NCBI RefSeq assembly: GCF_002608565.1
Contig: NZ_LIXM01000011.1
Coordinates: 62,001 to 126,000, forward strand
Length of the DNA: 64,000 nt
Direction: 5' to 3'
Source: Vibrio sp. PID17_43
Lineage (GTDB): Bacteria; Pseudomonadota; Gammaproteobacteria; Enterobacterales; Vibrionaceae
A program made the position numbers and the translations under genes. This document shows, piece by piece, positions 14,209-63,834 of the stretch. Positions within the stretch are counted from its first letter, which is position 1. Each line of letters begins with the position of its first letter. The notes below the pieces were generated by a model. That model was not told the DNA's origin. It was given only the letters and a program-made list of their open reading frames with translations, and did no database searches.

Positions 14209-15099
14209 TTATTTCTCCTGTCCGACCGAAAAATCGTGTCCCCATAGGCTGACACGAGTAAATTCAAAGGCACTGTGATTATCCCAATCGACCTGTAGGC
14301 CGCCGTAGCCAAATTCCATATCGAAACCTGAAGGCGTCTGCATGTAAAAAGAGGTCATTTTGTCATTCAGATGCTGACCCAGCGTCGCTGATAGCTGGAC
14401 ACCATGTTCAATACGGCGGTCATTCGCTCGCCCCACTTCCGACATGGAATCCACTTCAACCATGGTGTGTACACAGCCCGATGGCACAGGAAACTCGCAG
14501 ATTGCAAGGCTGTGGTGACGAGGATTATTACAGTGCATAAAGTAAATGCGAGCACTTGGCGCGTCTTCTGCTGGACGGAAATTGAAAATATCGGAAAGTT
14601 GGAAACCCATCACTTCGGTTAAGAACTGGTGCGTTTCGTCAAAATTAGGAGCAGGAAGAACGGTATGGCCAAGCCCCATTTCATCGGTAAGAAAACGAGG
14701 GACGCCCTGAGGAGAAACAAGCGGTTCGCAACCTGATAGGAATCCCCAGTACACTTCATGAGTGTTGCCAGCAGGGTCGTTAAATGTCACTAGCTGTTGC
14801 ACACCACGTTGCGTACATTGCTCGTTGTCGGCTAGCTCCCATGGCACCTGATGCTCGGTGAGCTTTTCAAGGGCGGCATCGAATGCGCCTTTAGAAGCCA
14901 GCTCCCAACCTGAAGCGATATAACGATTCTCGCTTCCTTCAATAATGAGCATACGAAATGGACGCTCATCCATTTTTACGTATAGGCCGCCACTTGGGGC
15001 TGGGTGGGTAGACATGCCCAATACTTGCTCTGCATAGTGTTGCCACTTATTCAAGTCATCGGTCTGGGCTACAAAATACCCGAGCGCCTTGATATCCAT
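14209..15099 (-). CDS. hsaC: 3,4-DHSA extradiol dioxygenase (HsaC/TesB)
   Basis: 296 aa, two-domain type I extradiol dioxygenase of the vicinal-oxygen-chelate family, the usual length. Iron ligands visible as H145 (GLGHTVLPAP), H211 (CVHTMVEVDS) and E262 (GFDMEFGYGG), with the catalytic second-sphere H196 (RHHSLAICE). It cleaves the catechol ring A of 3,4-DHSA between C4 and C5, giving 4,9-DSHA for HsaD. First gene of the long leftward operon; the operator at 15157-15174 lies 58 bp upstream. Confidence 0.92.
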   Translation of the reverse strand: MDIKALGYFVAQTDDLNKWQHYAEQVLGMSTHPAPSGGLYVKMDERPFRMLIIEGSENRYIASGWELASKGAFDAALEKLTEHQVPWELADNEQCTQRGVQQLVTFNDPAGNTHEVYWGFLSGCEPLVSPQGVPRFLTDEMGLGHTVLPAPNFDETHQFLTEVMGFQLSDIFNFRPAEDAPSARIYFMHCNNPRHHSLAICEFPVPSGCVHTMVEVDSMSEVGRANDRRIEHGVQLSATLGQHLNDKMTSFYMQTPSGFDMEFGYGGLQVDWDNHSAFEFTRVSLWGHDFSVGQEK

Positions 15100-15290: not shown

Positions 15291-16085
15291 ATGGATAACA
15301 AAGAGAAACCAAAAACAATGCCAGATGGTGACAACATTACTAACATTCAACGGAGCGACGATCAAAATGCAGCTGCAACGTCGCGCTTTTCACGAAGACG
15401 ATTCATTCGTTCAGCTGCGGTTACTTCACCGATTTTATTATCCGTAAAAAGCCCTGTTGCTTGGGGAGGAGGCCTCTATAGCGATCAATGTAGTATCGTT
15501 TCGCAATTGTCCGGTAATGCTTCCCACCCCCATAACTGTCAGACTCAGGCCAAAAGCCCGTTATACTGGATTAACACCTTCATCGGTGACAATGAGATAG
15601 TAAATCAAGAACTGGAGAAGCAAGGATATTACGCCACTACTCCGTTTCATGAATTGTTCCCCCACAATCTCAGCTCCTATAAGATACAACCTCGGATGAG
15701 CAAAACCTGGCGCTACCGAGTGAACCCTGACACAGAAAACCCCGCATTATTGCAATGCCTAATGAGATCTGACACAAGCTTCTGGTTAGAGTTCGAGAAT
15801 ATTGAAAGTAAGCAGAAAGTAAATATTGATGTGCTCAATGGCGTTCCAAACTTCCATTGCTGCGTCACAGCTGGTTTTCTCAACGGTTTATTTCACCCTT
15901 CTCCGATAAACTACGTTGGCGATGAGACCTACGTTCAAAAAGTATTCAAAGAAGCGCTGTTTCGTTCCGTTAACACCATCCTTTGGGATATTGAAACAAA
16001 ACAATTACAGGAAACAAGTGGGACAAAATATTCGCAAGCGATGCTTGACGTAACGACTCGTCTTAATAGGTGGGATAACGTTTGA
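15291..16085 (+). CDS. Unknown protein with twin-arginine signal, first gene of an HPr-rel-A-type cassette
   Basis: 264 aa. Not recognised. Starts at the ATG 15291. After about 35 polar residues comes a Tat-like signal, FSRRRFIRSAAVTSPILLS, then a mature part of about 210 residues. The mature part has several cysteines near its start (DQCSIV, HNCQ) and a CC pair later (FHCCVTAG). No catalytic motif was seen. Its stop overlaps the TTG start of the next gene, so it belongs with the PqqD-like, kinase and nucleotidyltransferase genes behind it. It could be the exported product or target on which that cassette acts. Base composition is lower in GC than the steroid genes, suggesting a different origin. 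Confidence 0.6.
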   Translation: MDNKEKPKTMPDGDNITNIQRSDDQNAAATSRFSRRRFIRSAAVTSPILLSVKSPVAWGGGLYSDQCSIVSQLSGNASHPHNCQTQAKSPLYWINTFIGDNEIVNQELEKQGYYATTPFHELFPHNLSSYKIQPRMSKTWRYRVNPDTENPALLQCLMRSDTSFWLEFENIESKQKVNIDVLNGVPNFHCCVTAGFLNGLFHPSPINYVGDETYVQKVFKEALFRSVNTILWDIETKQLQETSGTKYSQAMLDVTTRLNRWDNV

Positions 16086-16372
16086 TAATAAATCATTTAC
16101 TTAAAAATTTACATCAAGCAGACAATATCGAAATAAATCCAGCGTTTTGCTTGAAAGATAGCGTGTTTACTAGCGAACATAACGTGGTGATTTTTAGTCC
16201 ATTCACATGTGAAACCTTATTATGTGAAAGAAAAGCACTCCGTTTGCTAGTAGATTTAGTACAGAAACAAAATAATCCATCTAAAGTTAAAATTAGCCAA
16301 CACGAAACTCAATGGATTAATGATATCATCGTAAAACTGATATCAATGAGGATAATTTTGCTCAAGGAGTGA
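16082..16372 (+). CDS. PqqD-like small protein of the HPr-rel-A system
   Basis: 96 aa. Start is probably TTG at 16082 overlapping the upstream TGA, as the frame has no earlier ATG. The layout matches the PqqD-related family associated with HprK-related kinase A (N-terminal segment leading to a FSPFTCETLLCERKALRLL core). PqqD-type domains usually bind a peptide and present it to a modifying enzyme. Company of the kinase and nucleotidyltransferase is the main evidence; similarity by eye is modest. Function unknown. Confidence 0.55.
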   Translation: MIINHLLKNLHQADNIEINPAFCLKDSVFTSEHNVVIFSPFTCETLLCERKALRLLVDLVQKQNNPSKVKISQHETQWINDIIVKLISMRIILLKE

Positions 16373-16380
16373 GTCCATTA

Positions 16381-17280
16381 ATGTTCCTTAAGAATCGATT
16401 ATACCTACTTCAAGTGGGGGAGTTTACTTTTCAGATTGAATCTAACGTTTCTACCATCCATGACTACCTTTGCACGCACTATCGCTCCAACTTAAAAGAG
16501 CCTTCTTCACAAACATATGTTGATTACTATATCGCAATCAAACATGGTTGTTGGTATCGTCGTTTTTTTAAACCACAAGTTGCGTTTTATTTTAATCATC
16601 TGGCTCCCTTTAAACCACTCCCCCTTTCTCAAGCCCACGCACTGCTTGAATGGGGAATGAACTGGGTTATTTCGACCCAAGCTCATCAACACTTGATCAT
16701 CCATGCAGCTTCATTAGAAAAGAACGGTAAAGGCATTATTATTTCAGCACCTTCTGGATCAGGGAAAAGTACCCTCTGTGCCTATTTAGCTTCCCAAGGT
16801 TGGCGTTTACTCTCGGATGAATTAGCATTAGTGCATACCGAAAGCTTGGCTATACACGCCCTTGCCAGACCCATCAGCCTAAAGAACCAATCCATTGACG
16901 TCATCAAACCCTATTTTAGTGATGACCATTTTAGTGACATTGCTGTTGATACACATAAAGGTTCCATTTGCTTAGTGAAGCCTCCTCTTTCAAGCTCAAT
17001 ACGGGCGCAAGAGACCGCGAAGCCAAGCTTAATTGTCATGGTGAATTTTAACCCAGATGAACCTTTATATATAGAACGTATGGACTCGGCAGTTGCATTA
17101 ACTGAACTAATCCAAAACTGTTTTAACTTCGGATTGTTGAATAACAATGGGTTTCAATGTGCAAAAAAACTTATCAACACCTGTGAAAATCTCTATGTAG
17201 AGTACAGTAATTTTCAAGATTGTGAGCAAGCACTAAGCCATTACTTGGAGGCAGAAAACCGTTGTGATAAAGCTAGTTGA
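16381..17280 (+). CDS. HprK-related kinase A
   Basis: 299 aa from ATG 16381 (AAGGAG upstream; a GTG at 16369 is an alternative). Contains a P-loop GAP-SGSGKST type segment (ISAPSGSGKSTLCAYL, about 122-137) followed by LLSDELALV, which matches the HPr kinase/phosphorylase C-terminal fold where an Asp pair follows the P-loop. The N-terminal half is unlike true HprK. Members of this family sit in small cassettes with a PqqD-like protein and a nucleotidyltransferase and have no established substrate. Its 3' end overlaps the next gene by 17 bp. Confidence 0.75.
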   Translation: MFLKNRLYLLQVGEFTFQIESNVSTIHDYLCTHYRSNLKEPSSQTYVDYYIAIKHGCWYRRFFKPQVAFYFNHLAPFKPLPLSQAHALLEWGMNWVISTQAHQHLIIHAASLEKNGKGIIISAPSGSGKSTLCAYLASQGWRLLSDELALVHTESLAIHALARPISLKNQSIDVIKPYFSDDHFSDIAVDTHKGSICLVKPPLSSSIRAQETAKPSLIVMVNFNPDEPLYIERMDSAVALTELIQNCFNFGLLNNNGFQCAKKLINTCENLYVEYSNFQDCEQALSHYLEAENRCDKAS

Positions 17281-18352
17281 TGTATTAGTTCAGCCTGAAC
17301 AGTTAATCGAAGTCTCGCCGGCAACATTATCGAATATCGTAGCTGAAGCTCGATATTTTAATATGTTGGGACAGCTTAAGTATCATTGTAATACACGTGG
17401 AGTATGGTCTCGTCTACCTAAAAAATTTCGCCAACAGCTCGATACTGCCACACTATTTTACGACAACCAGCGCAGAAAATTGGCGGTTGAAACTGACGAA
17501 ATTGCTCATGCGCTCTCTCCACTCAACATCAATTGGATCTATTTGAAAGGCAGCGCCTACCACTTAAATAACATGAGTAACTTCTCAGGAAGAATGATGA
17601 GCGATATTGATGTTCTTGTGCAGGAGGAAGACTTACCACAGGTCGAAGCCGCACTAAGATCTCATGGCTGGATGCCTGCTCCGGTGAATAGTTACGATGA
17701 AAAATTCTACCGCAATTGGTCGCAAGAGATCCCGCCATTACGACATATTTATCGCCAAGTAGAACTGGATGTACATTTCAATATCCTGCCGAAGACATTA
17801 AAAGAGTCCATTAATAATAAACATTTATTCGAACAATCACTTCCGTTTAGCGATGACCCCAATCAAAAAGTACTCACCCCACATGCAATGCTCGCCCATA
17901 GTGCCATTCATCTGTTCTACGAAAGTGAATATGCCAAAGGGCTAAGAGATCTTTACGACATTGCTCTGTTGATCAATCATTATTCTGTAGAAGCGTCATT
18001 TTGGGATGATCTCATCGAACTTGGTCGTACGATTGGTAACGAATCATCGATCTACTTAGCGTTACGTTACAGTCAGCAAATTTATTGCTCTCAAATTCCT
18101 ACCACGGTGATTGATCACTATGCTCAGTTCAGACCCAATTGGTTGTATCTCACTGTATTGGATTTCTGTTTCTTTGCCATTTTTACCCGCTCATTTCCAC
18201 CTCACAGAAAGTCAGGACATGGGTTGGCAGAAACATTCCTCTACCTAAGAGGGCATTTGAAAAGAATGCCACTGCGCTTACTCGTCCCGCATCTAACCAA
18301 AAAGTACTTCGACAAATTTAAAGTCAAACAACAAGCAGACGAACTGATTTAA
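17264..18352 (+). CDS. Nucleotidyltransferase family protein (PF14907-like)
   Basis: 362 aa, GTG start at 17264 with TTGGAGG upstream. The signature is INWIYLKGSAYHLN followed by GRMMSDIDVLV, that is a KG-S ... DID pair of metal-binding aspartates typical of the uncharacterised nucleotidyltransferase family, then LDVHFNILP. The C-terminal part is helical. Such proteins are frequent in peptide-modification and exosortase-type cassettes. It overlaps the kinase gene, and the unit ends at the hairpin 18379-18425. Substrate unknown. Confidence 0.72.
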   Translation: MIKLVDVLVQPEQLIEVSPATLSNIVAEARYFNMLGQLKYHCNTRGVWSRLPKKFRQQLDTATLFYDNQRRKLAVETDEIAHALSPLNINWIYLKGSAYHLNNMSNFSGRMMSDIDVLVQEEDLPQVEAALRSHGWMPAPVNSYDEKFYRNWSQEIPPLRHIYRQVELDVHFNILPKTLKESINNKHLFEQSLPFSDDPNQKVLTPHAMLAHSAIHLFYESEYAKGLRDLYDIALLINHYSVEASFWDDLIELGRTIGNESSIYLALRYSQQIYCSQIPTTVIDHYAQFRPNWLYLTVLDFCFFAIFTRSFPPHRKSGHGLAETFLYLRGHLKRMPLRLLVPHLTKKYFDKFKVKQQADELI

Positions 18353-18378: not shown

Positions 18379-18425
18379 CAACAGACAGCAAGCAGAGCTA
18401 AATACACTCTGCCTACTGTCTGTTG
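18379..18425. terminator. Bidirectional hairpin terminator
   Basis: CAACAGACAG pairs with CTGTCTGTTG, with an inner CAGAG/CTCTG pair. It separates the convergent nucleotidyltransferase and subtilase genes. Confidence 0.65.
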
Positions 18426-18447: not shown

Positions 18448-21348
18448 CTACTTAACGACGATATCGTCAATCAACAACACGGAATCGTACAGATCATCTT
18501 CACTGTCTGAAATATTGATTCGGTACTCACCTTGCCCTTGTGTCACCGGTATGGTTAAGCTGACGTTCTTAAACCCTATGTGCCCCACAGTGTCATCCCC
18601 TCCTGGAAAATCAATGCCGTCAATGAGCGTAAACTCAGAGTCATTCACACTATCACGGGCTAACTCTTGTTGCGTGCCATCGGGCAATGTCAATGTGATA
18701 AGCAATATGTCATCAAATGGAGAGCCTAAAAATTCCGGATACTCTTCGGTAAGGAAATTGTAAGTCAACTCAAGCGTTAACTCTGTAACGCCCGGCTGAA
18801 TAACAAATGACTTGAGCAAGGTTGTTTCCGCTTGATCTTCTTCTGGACCAGTACTCAACAACGCCATTCGATTCCCTGAAGGTGGACGTAGACTACCCAG
18901 TTCAGTAATGCTACTCGCGGTACCACTAGTTTCCCATTCAGCCAAGTCCCCAATCTCAAAACCACCATTAAACACCGCCTCAAAAAGGTCAACGCGACTT
19001 GTACCAATCAACAGTGCTGCGTCAACCGATTTACCAGACCTGAGCAACCGCTCCCTAATTTGCTTTGGTTCCCATTCAGGGTGTTGAGTCCATATCACCG
19101 CGGCAGAACCCGACACCAAAGGCGCAGCCATACTAGTGCCCGATTTTATCGACGTACCACCGCCAAGCTGAGTAGAACGCGCATTTTCGCCCGGTGCCGC
19201 AATATCAACCCATGTCCCAAAGTTACTTAAAGATGCTCTCTCATCAAGATCTGTTGCGTTTCCTACGCACAGTGTTTGTTCATAATAACAAGGGTACTTT
19301 CTCTTATTCGACGCATCATTACCGGCTGTGGATACGATTAAGGCCCCTTTATTCGACGCATAGTCAATCACGCGATTTAGCGAGACCGAATCGACATAAC
19401 CACCGCCACTAATATTTACTACTTTAGTGCCCCTGTCCGCAGAATAGCGAATCGCAGAGACCAGTGCCGCGTAACTTCCGCCTAGACCTCGAACTGCCAA
19501 AATTTTACTGTTCCAAGCAACACTAGCGATACCATCACTATTGTTTGATTCCGCCCCGATCAGTCCCGCAACGTGGGTGCCATGGCCATTTTCATCCATA
19601 GGATCATCATCACCGGAGACAGAATCGATTCCTTTAATAATTTTGCTGTCTAAATCGGCGTGTGTATAGTCAATGCCAGTATCCACCACACCAACAAGGG
19701 TGTCGCCAGAAGAGATATACCACGCCTTATCGGCACGTATTGTGGTCATATTGGATTGATTCAAAAACTCACTGTCATTCGGATAAGAATCAATGCTCGC
19801 AAGCACTGAGTATTCGACATAGTCCACTTCAGTGTATGTTTGAAGAGATTCAATCACTTGCTCTAAACGAGATAACGAATTATTGGTTTCAACTTGGAGT
19901 TGGTAAATCCCTAGACTCAATACCGTACCAACAATTGTACCGTTCTCTGACGCGACGATTTCCTGTATACGATCTTCGCTAGTTACATCTACAAACTTGA
20001 CCAACAATTCGTTACTAAAGATTTGGTTGCCACTCTCATCGGTAATAAGAGCACTGAAATCTGACGGAGCAACTGAAGTGGGTAATTGAGTAACACTAAG
20101 CGTATGAACTCCTGATTTGATCTCGCCATTGGTAACGCGGTAATAAAGTTCACCGATACTGTTTTTAGAAACGGTGTGCAAACCGGTGTAAACCAAATCC
20201 CTAGCCACAATGTCTGGTGCGATACCGTCATCACGCAGTGAGCCGAGCGTCGCAATAACGCCAGTCCCAGCCTCATCGACTTGTTCAAGTGTTAGAGTCT
20301 CTGGAGCAGTGGCGGTACGTGTTACTTTGGCACTGACAATCAGCTCTTCAGTTTGCCCGAGCGTAATGGCATCTTTATCAGTTCCAGGGGTACTTAACTT
20401 CATTGAGCTTCGAGACGCGGTATCAGTAACCGTAATTGGCAACGACAATGTCATTGTTTGTCCTGTTTCTACCAAATTCACCACACTGGTGAACGTATAC
20501 TCACCTGCGGTTACGGCATTCAATGTCACGTTGACGACCCATGAGTTATCTTCTGCGGCAAGCCATCCCCCATTAGGGTAGTTACTGGTATAGGAGACAC
20601 CGCTTGCCGGTGTGACCGATTGTTCCAGCTGCACGCCATACTCTGCGGCATTGCCATCAATAAACTTAACGACAAACGCGATGATTTTTTCATCACCTTC
20701 TAGCATCGAAATGCTCGAAAGCCCCTGTTCGATAGATACAAATGCGTCTTGCGGTTGAACAACCGTTACAGTTCGTGTAGCGGTCGCTTGGTTACCAGAT
20801 GAGTCCATCGCTTCGTAAGTCACGGAGTAATCACCCTTGATATTAGTATCGACATTCCCAATTGTTATTACGTCAACAGAGCCATCGACATCATCATCCG
20901 CTGTTGCGCCTGCGTCATTGTACGTTTGACCTTGGCTTATCTTCGTTGGGTTATCCCCCAGTACCGTGATCACCGGAGGTGTCGTATCTGACTTAGTGAC
21001 TGCCGCTTGTACTTTTACCGTTCTACTCGCAGAAGCTTCATTTCCAGCCGCATCTGTTGCCACATAAGTAATGGTATAAGTGCCCACTTTACTAGTATCA
21101 ACATCCCCTGTTGTTGTTACCGTAACTGAACCGTCAACGGCATCGTCAGCCGTAGCTCCTGCATCACTATAGGTTTCCCCTTGCTCTACCATCGCAGGAT
21201 TATCACCCATAACAGAGATCACTGGCGGTGTGGTATCCGAGCTCGACTGTACCTCCCCATCACCACCTCCCCCGCAACCAAAGAGAGAAAAGAATAACGC
21301 CGCCAGCGCCACTTTTTTTAGTGGTTCAAATACTTTGGTGTTTCCCAT
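18448..21348 (-). CDS. Secreted lipoprotein subtilisin-like serine protease (S8) with two Ig-like repeats
   Basis: 966 aa. Lipoprotein signal with lipobox LFGC (C25) then a GGGGDG linker. Two tandem DUF5011-type Ig repeats at about 38-114 and 119-198, near-copies of each other (DTTPPVIxVxGDNP ... YTxTYxAxDxxGN). A further beta-rich region follows to about 430. A propeptide-like segment is at 445-520. The S8 catalytic domain has D556 (GVVDTGIDY), H592 (NGHGTHVAG) and S739 (SGTSMAAP). A C-terminal jelly-roll-like domain follows (about 790-966). Predicted to be anchored in the outer membrane and to degrade proteins outside the cell. No operator motif upstream. No obvious link to steroid breakdown. 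Confidence 0.88.
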   Translation of the reverse strand: MGNTKVFEPLKKVALAALFFSLFGCGGGGDGEVQSSSDTTPPVISVMGDNPAMVEQGETYSDAGATADDAVDGSVTVTTTGDVDTSKVGTYTITYVATDAAGNEASASRTVKVQAAVTKSDTTPPVITVLGDNPTKISQGQTYNDAGATADDDVDGSVDVITIGNVDTNIKGDYSVTYEAMDSSGNQATATRTVTVVQPQDAFVSIEQGLSSISMLEGDEKIIAFVVKFIDGNAAEYGVQLEQSVTPASGVSYTSNYPNGGWLAAEDNSWVVNVTLNAVTAGEYTFTSVVNLVETGQTMTLSLPITVTDTASRSSMKLSTPGTDKDAITLGQTEELIVSAKVTRTATAPETLTLEQVDEAGTGVIATLGSLRDDGIAPDIVARDLVYTGLHTVSKNSIGELYYRVTNGEIKSGVHTLSVTQLPTSVAPSDFSALITDESGNQIFSNELLVKFVDVTSEDRIQEIVASENGTIVGTVLSLGIYQLQVETNNSLSRLEQVIESLQTYTEVDYVEYSVLASIDSYPNDSEFLNQSNMTTIRADKAWYISSGDTLVGVVDTGIDYTHADLDSKIIKGIDSVSGDDDPMDENGHGTHVAGLIGAESNNSDGIASVAWNSKILAVRGLGGSYAALVSAIRYSADRGTKVVNISGGGYVDSVSLNRVIDYASNKGALIVSTAGNDASNKRKYPCYYEQTLCVGNATDLDERASLSNFGTWVDIAAPGENARSTQLGGGTSIKSGTSMAAPLVSGSAAVIWTQHPEWEPKQIRERLLRSGKSVDAALLIGTSRVDLFEAVFNGGFEIGDLAEWETSGTASSITELGSLRPPSGNRMALLSTGPEEDQAETTLLKSFVIQPGVTELTLELTYNFLTEEYPEFLGSPFDDILLITLTLPDGTQQELARDSVNDSEFTLIDGIDFPGGDDTVGHIGFKNVSLTIPVTQGQGEYRINISDSEDDLYDSVLLIDDIVVK

Positions 21349-62590: not shown

Positions 62591-63117
62591 CTAAGCTTTT
62601 TTAAGTGCAACATTCCTCAACAAAGAGTAAGACGCTTTATCGAGGGGATCTCGCTCGATACTCTTCGCATGCCGTTTGTGGTGCCGTTCTTCACGTTATA
62701 GGCTGAATCAAGCAGCTCAAAAGGTTAATATGCGCTACAAGTGACTCAAACTGAGTGATAGACCTCGCTAGCATGAGTGGCTTATATCAAGACCTTCCCG
62801 AAAGACTTAAATCCAACCCTAGAGTTTGTTGACCTCATTCGGCTGTTTTTGCTTTGCAATGTTTTGTTCGCGGCGGACGGCTAGTCGCAATTGTAATAAT
62901 AAGCGACGAAGTATGCGAATAAAAAGCGTGAGCACAATTCGCATTCGGATCTCACGGGTGACATCAAAATATAGTGTCAGATATCTTTACGGTATGAGTA
63001 AAATGTCAGCTTAAGTGGTTGGATTTATTAACAAAAAAACATGGCCTAATTATTGCTTTGTGTGGAGTGAATGCCAAGGTGTTTTAATTTTTATTTAGCA
63101 ATTAGAAAGGAATTTGA
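62591..63117. other. Gene-free stretch before the PEP-CTERM gene
   Basis: 527 bp. A 62-codon arginine-rich frame at 62826-63014 has no ribosome site or homology. The A/T-rich 63020-63110 segment should carry the promoter of the next gene. Confidence 0.45.
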
Positions 63118-63834
63118 ATGCAAAAATATACATGTTTACTGTCCATCTTAGCCGTTTTATTTACTTTAACCTCCTCGAACGTTTATGCCGGTTTTATCCT
63201 CGATAAGATTAAAAATGGCGATTCACTCTCTTCGCTGAGTAGTGTTGTCGATACCACTTTTGATAATGCCAGCGTCGATTCAAATAATATATATGGCTGG
63301 ACCGGGGCCAATTTATTCTTCGATGATAACAACGAGGGAACTTATAACTTTTCATTTACCTACTTGGGTTCAGAGTCTAACTATCAAACTAATAAATTTT
63401 TTGAATTGCAAAACCCGATATTAGGGGGGACTCTGTTGAGCGAAAAAGATGCGGTGGGGACAACCGTGGACTTTGAATTCAACCACCAAGAGGAGTCAGC
63501 AGTACCATTTGGTTTTTCTCGCTGTACCGGACTTCATTGCTCAAATATAGCCTTAAATGGTTTTAACGATGATGGTGAGCCAAATTTCTTCTTTGGTTTT
63601 GCAGGCATCGATGAAAGCAGCTTAGATTTTTCGACCGCCTATTTATTTTACAATGACGGCGGAGGCAATGCTGACGCAGACTTCGATGATTTCGTATTGT
63701 CGATGACGGTTGGCCAAGAGAGTGCACCATTCGGTGTTGTTCCCACTGGCGTCGTGCCAGAGCCATCTTCATTAGCAGTCTTTGGTTTAGGGCTATTTGG
63801 GGTTGGCTTGTTGCGTCGCCGTCAGGCAAAGTAA
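63118..63834 (+). CDS. PEP-CTERM-sorted secreted protein
   Basis: 238 aa. Signal peptide (MQKYTCLLSILAVLFTLTSS, cut near VYAG). A central beta-rich region has acidic, calcium-type stretches (DDNNEGTYNF, GGGNADADFDDF). The C-terminal sorting tag has VVPEPSSLAVFGLG, a hydrophobic segment and RRRQAK. The tag is recognised by an exosortase in the inner membrane, after which the protein is usually exported to the biofilm matrix. No exosortase gene is in the window, so one must lie elsewhere. AAAGGAA precedes the ATG. Confidence 0.88.
   Translation: MQKYTCLLSILAVLFTLTSSNVYAGFILDKIKNGDSLSSLSSVVDTTFDNASVDSNNIYGWTGANLFFDDNNEGTYNFSFTYLGSESNYQTNKFFELQNPILGGTLLSEKDAVGTTVDFEFNHQEESAVPFGFSRCTGLHCSNIALNGFNDDGEPNFFFGFAGIDESSLDFSTAYLFYNDGGGNADADFDDFVLSMTVGQESAPFGVVPTGVVPEPSSLAVFGLGLFGVGLLRRRQAK

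Follow-up and report, generated by a model that had tools for sequence, protein, structure and literature searches.

In the 64,000-nt stretch of the Vibrio sp. PID17_43 genome analysed here (contig NZ_LIXM01000011.1, positions 62,001 to 126,000 of the forward strand; hereafter, the window), four overlapping plus-strand genes at 15291–18352 (overlaps of 4, 4 and 17 nt) encode a protein with a twin-arginine translocation (Tat) signal, a PqqD-like protein, an HprK-related kinase A and a nucleotidyltransferase. The Tat protein gene accompanies the kinase gene across genomes, and we consider, with a probability of roughly 65%, that the cassette is a protein modification system acting on the Tat protein in the manner of ribosomally synthesised and post-translationally modified peptides (RiPPs). 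The set is found repeatedly in proteobacteria with an exosortase-linked slime layer. An initial annotation had delimited the overlapping four-gene unit and had proposed a protein or peptide modification set with the first gene product perhaps as its target; the layout is as described there, and co-occurrence supports the proposal, for which we infer a chemistry. The features of the cassette are the following:

15291–16085, plus strand: Tat-signal protein, 264 amino acids, proposed substrate (twin arginines in 94 of 94 homologues)
15393–15407, plus strand: twin-arginine motif RRRFI, residues 35–39 of the Tat protein (family alignments)
15510–15524, plus strand: SGNAS, residues 74–78 of the Tat protein, candidate modification site (near-invariant serines after the predicted signal peptide)
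16082–16372, plus strand: PqqD-like RiPP recognition element (RRE), 96 amino acids, TTG start (position, alignments, homologues matching TIGR04353, structural model)
16369–17280, plus strand: HprK-related kinase A, 303 amino acids, GTG start (TIGR04352)
16756–16773, plus strand: P-loop GSGKST, kinase residues 130–135 (alignment)
17264–18352, plus strand: PF14907 (NTP_transf_5) nucleotidyltransferase, 362 amino acids (profile score)
17603–17611, plus strand: DxD motif, D114 and D116 of the nucleotidyltransferase (alignment)
18379–18425, no strand assigned: strong hairpin without a T-run, between convergent genes (−26.9 kcal/mol; z −3.6)

The kinase is encoded in 33 of the 395 genomes of our order-level sample. 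A profile of the Tat protein family, built on an alignment (A5) of 94 sequences, matches in all 33, and in seven of the 362 others (nominal Fisher p 1e-41). These seven matches begin only at around position 74–78; that is, they cover the mature domain without the leader and the serine motif, and this domain, therefore, exists outside the cassette (leaderless SPGYWK-like mature domains in G052, G207, G249, G347, G356, G374 and G401). In all 29 cassettes retrieved from the order besides that of the window, an open reading frame (ORF) with an RRx[FL]-type signal lies ahead of the RRE–kinase–nucleotidyltransferase trio. A scan of named genomes with the kinase alignment yielded 79 loci; apart from one in Malonomonas, they come from beta- and gammaproteobacteria. 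A Tat family match lies at the same locus in 77 of them (in L042, only a fragment, where the contig ends). In the remaining two, Vibrio hannami and a Nitrosospira metagenome-assembled genome, the Tat match lies elsewhere in the genome; in V. hannami, the gene is complete and unlinked (G427:C3:718112-718795). At the V. hannami kinase locus (L041 10884-11977), the nucleotidyltransferase gene is split in two frames, by decay or sequencing error, and a PrsR-like gene stands directly ahead of the RRE gene. Furthermore, among the 57 kinase-positive genomes of a phylum sample of 329, 29 loci were inspected, and in 25 of these a Tat-signal ORF lies immediately upstream. The cassettes have no other small ORF that recurs, leaving the Tat protein as the only partner common to essentially all of them. 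The proposal has, thus, survived the refuting test set for it beforehand, namely non-co-occurrence of the Tat gene with the other three.

The Tat gene is usually located upstream of the trio, but it also occurs downstream (L118), downstream and inverted (L085 and L108) or doubled (L098), and one locus consists of two divergent cassettes (L069). Its position varies, yet it is present, suggesting that the linkage is kept through rearrangement. The association could also be one of frozen synteny, or of a selfish block that moves along with exosortase loci, the Tat gene being functionally uncoupled from the other three, and the Vibrio copies do reside, together with a whole XrtA cluster, on what is probably a plasmid-like replicon (see below); we hold this explanation to be very improbable, since the Tat gene keeps its partners through varied gene orders and orientations and, where the linkage is lost, is found elsewhere in the genome.

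The window Tat protein has no match in Pfam or NCBIfam, consistent with its initial designation as being of unknown type; its homologues belong to no Pfam family and, in NCBIfam, match generic Tat-signal models, with one stray match besides. The family is very diverse (mean column identity of 11% over the 94 sequences), for which reason a scan of the named genomes with the window protein alone as the query found nothing. The twin arginines are followed two residues on by F or L in 88 of the 94 sequences and the c-region contains K or R in 72, while TIGR01409 (Tat signal) matches seven of 32 family members. By virtue of this signal, with its twin arginines, hydrophobic stretch and basic c-region, the window protein and its homologues are predicted Tat substrates. 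It is not a PEP-CTERM protein: the window copy ends in ...TTRLNRWDNV, and no PEP-CTERM tail occurs in the family.

Directly after the predicted signal peptide, the family conserves a motif, S-x3-S-G-N-x-S, in which S74 is kept in 93, S70 in 89 and S78 in 87 of the 94 sequences; the window protein itself has S71, S74 and S78. S74 lies at a median distance of 11 residues past the predicted signal peptidase site and is retained in 62 of 63 sequences after thinning of the family to <40% identity. The spacing S-x3-S-x3-S is found in 77 of the 94 tails as compared to 6.4 in shuffles. Farther along, N198 (91 of 94) and a SPGYWK-like motif are also conserved, and serines dominate the conserved positions of the otherwise variable mature protein. 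The AlphaFold model of the window protein has an overall predicted local distance difference test (pLDDT) score of 74.6, with residues 88–260 well predicted and the serine tail at ~45–50, which fits a tail, probably flexible, on a folded domain. A fold search of the PDB with this model gave nothing convincing (Foldseek: best E 0.41, TM ~0.14; VIA-align: best Z 5.6, with RNA polymerase chains, within the chance range), and the model supports the claim of neither a new nor a known fold.

The kinase is a full-length member of TIGR04352 (score 302.8 bits, cut-off 200; profile positions 3–278 of 280), as had been proposed. H112, G130, G132, K133, S134, T135, D150 and E151 are invariant in 32 sequences, and the HprK-type core is recognisable in the His ahead of the P-loop, GxxGxGKST and the acidic pair after the P-loop; the kinase profile matches the HPrK structure 1jb1 (E 0.0018). 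The last gene product, likewise, is the nucleotidyltransferase announced by the initial annotation, scoring 140.8 bits with PF14907 (gathering cut-off 31.2). G96, D114, D116 and D169 are invariant in 30 sequences, and three of them, D114, D116 and D169, are catalytic carboxylates.

The role of RRE domains is to deliver ribosomal precursors to the enzymes that modify them. The assignment of the 96-amino-acid protein to this class comes from its homologues and its structural model, and it is in this form that the claim of a PqqD-like protein stands: at E ≤ 1, the window protein does not match TIGR04353 (PqqD_rel_X), and it matches no PqqD model, but 11 of 29 positional homologues match TIGR04353, at best with 4e-17, and the AlphaFold model (pLDDT 86.7) has the RRE fold of three beta-strands followed by helices. 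VIA-align paired the model with TbiB1 with a leader peptide (5v1v; Z 7.3), with PbtF (8t19) and a lasso B1 protein (6jx3; both 6.8), and with PqqD (5sxy; 6.3); the lasso RREs among these matches include structures with bound leader peptides. Foldseek E-values are weak on their own (best 0.18). The assignment is convincing despite the modest single scores because most matches with Z > 4.5 are RRE-bearing RiPP enzymes. The sole profile match, a weak one to CCA-adding enzymes (E 0.013–0.029), was rejected as the sign of an enzyme fragment, because position, homologues and fold all indicate an RRE.

From these components, the following sequence of events can be envisaged. The RRE would bind the Tat precursor in the cytoplasm, most likely at the conserved leader, and bring it to the kinase, which would phosphorylate one or more serines in the flexible S-x3-S-G-N-x-S tail just past the signal peptide. 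The nucleotidyltransferase would add a nucleotide or a sugar to the phosphoserine, the Tat pathway would export the modified product, signal peptidase would remove the leader, and the mature protein would join the exosortase (XrtA)/PEP-CTERM exopolysaccharide layer. The Tat pathway carries already folded proteins and the modification needs cytoplasmic ATP, so that this route of transport fits. Judged by analogy with characterised systems, the Tat protein is quite probably the substrate and its leader likely the part bound by the RRE, while we see an even chance that a tail serine is the acceptor. Addition of a nucleotide or sugar to the phosphoserine is put forward more tentatively.

The closest analogies are with two groups of phosphorylated RiPPs. 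In lasso peptides such as paeninodin and pseudomycoidin, PadeK and PsmK phosphorylate a serine of the precursor, and the presence of hexoses on the phosphoserine requires PsmN (PMC9266682). In the systems for linear polyphosphorylated peptides (LPPs) of Bacillota, which comprise an RRE, an HprK-like kinase and an NTP transferase, LppK phosphorylates core residue S3 (Popov et al. 2026, PMC13381572). With the lasso systems (PadeK, ThcoK, PsmK, PsmN), the cassette shares the RRE (B1), the HprK-like kinase, the nucleotidyltransferase and a ribosomal precursor; unlike them, the cassette and its neighbours lack a macrolactam cyclase (C) and a B2 peptidase, the precursor is a protein instead of a peptide of 40–50 amino acids, and the conserved serine is in the N-terminal tail, not at the C terminus. 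With the LPPs, it shares a discrete RRE, an HprK-like kinase, an NTP transferase, precursors with a conserved N-terminal region and a variable C terminus, and proximity to polysaccharide loci; the LPP serine soon after the leader, which is phosphorylated, would find its counterpart in the proposed tail serine. However, LPP systems have a SipW-like signal peptidase and an MsbA-like exporter, neither of which is present in the cassette or its neighbours (in the window and at the orthologous locus). In addition, LPP leaders carry YxxP, while no [YW]xxP is conserved in the 94-sequence Tat alignment, and the precursor here is a folded protein of 160–300 amino acids with a Tat leader, in hosts that are Pseudomonadota with an exosortase. 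We, therefore, rejected the cassette as an LPP system, for want of the dedicated peptidase, exporter and YxxP, and as a lasso peptide system, for want of the cyclase and B2. We regard the cassette as a further, new form of RRE-guided HprK-type modification, which would work like the paeninodin and LPP phospho-RiPPs while belonging to neither.

A second type of Tat protein is encoded in other kinase A cassettes (L155-L168, L172-L176 and L179-L181), the hosts of which are probably Alphaproteobacteria: it is 160–230 amino acids long and has a serine soon after the leader and a near-invariant C-terminal SCWxSF. The acceptor site may, therefore, differ between branches. One could go further and let the kinase act on another residue of the Tat protein throughout, for instance a C-terminal serine, the SGNxS tail being a recognition or structural element: lasso kinases do modify a C-terminal serine (PMC9266682), and SCWxSF in the alphaproteobacterial proteins would suit this, whereas the beta/gamma type to which the window protein belongs has no conserved serine near the C terminus (94-sequence alignment) and the serine modified by LppK is an N-terminal one of the core (PMC13381572), which makes this version distinctly improbable.

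The regulatory sequences upstream of the Tat genes point to a physiological setting. Haft et al. 2006 (PMC1569441) described the promoter of PEP-CTERM genes as TTTACA, a spacer of ~63 and then a sigma-54 motif. In an unbiased count of 6-mers upstream of the Tat genes, TTTACA was the most enriched (45 of 83, as compared to 3.5 expected), at distances in steps of ~11–12 bp. A sigma-54 site, at a threshold of at least nine of 11 positions, was found ahead of 63 of 102 Tat genes and of 82 of 1045 control ORFs; the pair of a TTTACA box 40–100 bp upstream of a −24/−12 site was found ahead of 57 and 12, respectively. Eleven of these 12 promoter-positive controls are PEP-CTERM genes and, thus, provide an internal positive control.

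This is coherent with the distribution of the exosortase (PF09721), which is encoded in all 33 kinase-positive genomes as compared to 83 of the 395 overall (nominal p 1e-25); PrsK homologues occur at most 10 kb away in 23 of the 79 loci. The exosortase context invoked in the initial annotation is, thereby, confirmed, with added support from the promoter in relatives, and the PEP-CTERM protein at 63118 that it had cited is real. The gene for the latter is preceded by a sigma-54-like site, TGGCCTAATTATTGCT, at 63042–63057 of the window and, upstream of this, by TTTACG, a variant of the known PEP-CTERM promoter. Like the exosortase/PEP-CTERM system, the cassette is found in the same genomes, has in many relatives the same sigma-54/TTTACA promoter, lies near PrsK at those 23 loci and has an exported product; unlike PEP-CTERM proteins, the Tat protein lacks the PEP-CTERM tail and carries a Tat signal. 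The components named in the available text of Haft et al. (PEP-CTERM, EpsH, PrsK, PrsR and PrsT; PMC1569441) do not include a kinase/RRE/nucleotidyltransferase cassette. Given the promoter found in many relatives and the genome co-occurrence, we would put even odds on the exosortase-linked matrix as the destination of the Tat protein.

The same evidence bears on the identity of the substrate. The three enzymes might have a different target (a small peptide, a precursor of the exopolysaccharide or one of the PEP-CTERM proteins), with the Tat protein as a co-regulated partner that acts on the same product, e.g., as an enzyme or binding protein of the periplasm: an exosortase is present in every kinase-positive genome, the cassette shares the PEP-CTERM promoter in many relatives, and the mature domain occurs without Tat leader or kinase in seven genomes and may, thus, have a function of its own. 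We nonetheless consider this unlikely, because the presence of an RRE calls for a peptide or protein as the substrate, and essentially all cassettes have no partner in common but the Tat protein, with no other recurrent small ORF. The mature Tat sequence, furthermore, varies too much to be that of a conserved enzyme, whereas the leader and the serine tail are kept.

The window genome encodes a single exosortase. Its gene precedes the cassette by 43 kb on the contig that both share and belongs to a typical XrtA cluster, in which PrsK- and PrsR-like genes were identified (by likeness to an annotated cluster; phmmer). The same set, consisting of the XrtA cluster, a PEP-CTERM gene, steroid-type catabolic genes and the cassette, is carried by Vibrio alfacsensis plasmids, to which the identity is 41% for the Tat protein, 66% for the kinase, 62% for the nucleotidyltransferase and 67–68% for the exosortase; from this likeness, the window contig is probably plasmid-like. 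The XrtA cluster, steroid-type genes and cassette, thus, occur together (contig G000:C3, L037-L040; L033, L150) in a genus otherwise devoid of exosortase among the members sampled. Beside the exosortase clusters (G000:C3 44272-48691, L038; L150 22969-28634) are a gene for a phosphocholine cytidylyltransferase-like protein and a gene for a large PEP-utilizing enzyme, conserved between the window contig and V. alfacsensis, the products of which may decorate the polysaccharide.

Several observations weigh against modification of the Tat protein as we envisage it. The window and V. alfacsensis copies of the cassette lack the PEP-CTERM promoter, as does the V. hannami Tat gene; the window genome has a TTTACA box ahead of another PEP-CTERM gene (L038). 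Four of the 29 kinase loci inspected in the phylum sample have no Tat gene within 1.5 kb, and the alphaproteobacterial cassettes carry the other type of Tat protein, with its strongest serine motif at the C terminus. Shared ancestry inflates the co-occurrence counts, for which the p-values are nominal and descriptive only. The conserved serines are flanked by cysteines C67 and C83 (~85% kept) and could be structural. Lastly, in the LPP system, no influence of the NTP transferase on the product could be detected in the heterologous host (PMC13381572).

The genes adjoining the cassette are on the other strand: a VOC-family gene (14209–15099) and, convergently, a gene (18448–21348) for a lipoprotein-like, subtilisin-type protease of 966 amino acids with repeated immunoglobulin-like domains. 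The guanine-plus-cytosine content of the cassette is 40.8% as compared to 46.9% for the whole window, among the lowest 5–6% of equal-size windows, in line with the lower value claimed initially; it resembles the 37.8–41.5% of the XrtA cluster, which lies on this contig too, and differs from the value of the steroid genes. A terminator proper to the cassette had also been claimed, of which the strong hairpin at 18379–18425 is real, but it lacks a T-run and the terminator scan gave no canonical terminator at the cassette end. Ordinary sigma-70 promoters and terminators were not detected in the cassette above the level of shuffled sequence, and the steroid operator, which the initial annotation held to be missing from the unit, was sought as a repeated palindrome, with none found common to the intergenic regions of the window.

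In the open-access literature searched, we found no mention of the kinase family name, of the SPGYWK-like motif or of PF14907, though absence there is not proof. The exported Tat protein and its link to the exosortase-linked slime layer appear to be undescribed. The HPr-rel-A system is represented in NCBIfam by TIGR04352 and TIGR04353, and the cassette conforms to it in the kinase scoring above the cut-off, the PqqD homologues matching TIGR04353 and the adjacent nucleotidyltransferase; those models name proteins and no substrate, while the Tat family and the PEP-CTERM promoter are added here. To our knowledge, the HprK-related kinase A family is named in databases without anyone having assigned it a function, and the cassette gives it a candidate protein substrate and a physiological setting. 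If our interpretation is true, RRE-guided HprK-type phosphorylation would extend from small Gram-positive peptides to folded, Tat-exported proteins of Gram-negative bacteria, and phospho-RiPP chemistry would, thereby, be linked to the exosortase/exopolysaccharide system, with a testable residue motif. As far as we know, the attachment chemistry of that system is a long-standing question. It is conceivable, if doubtful, that the Tat protein receives from the kinase and the nucleotidyltransferase a phosphodiester-linked group that serves to attach it to the exosortase-linked exopolysaccharide; if so, RiPP-type enzymes would here be producing a new class of protein–polysaccharide conjugate from a folded protein.

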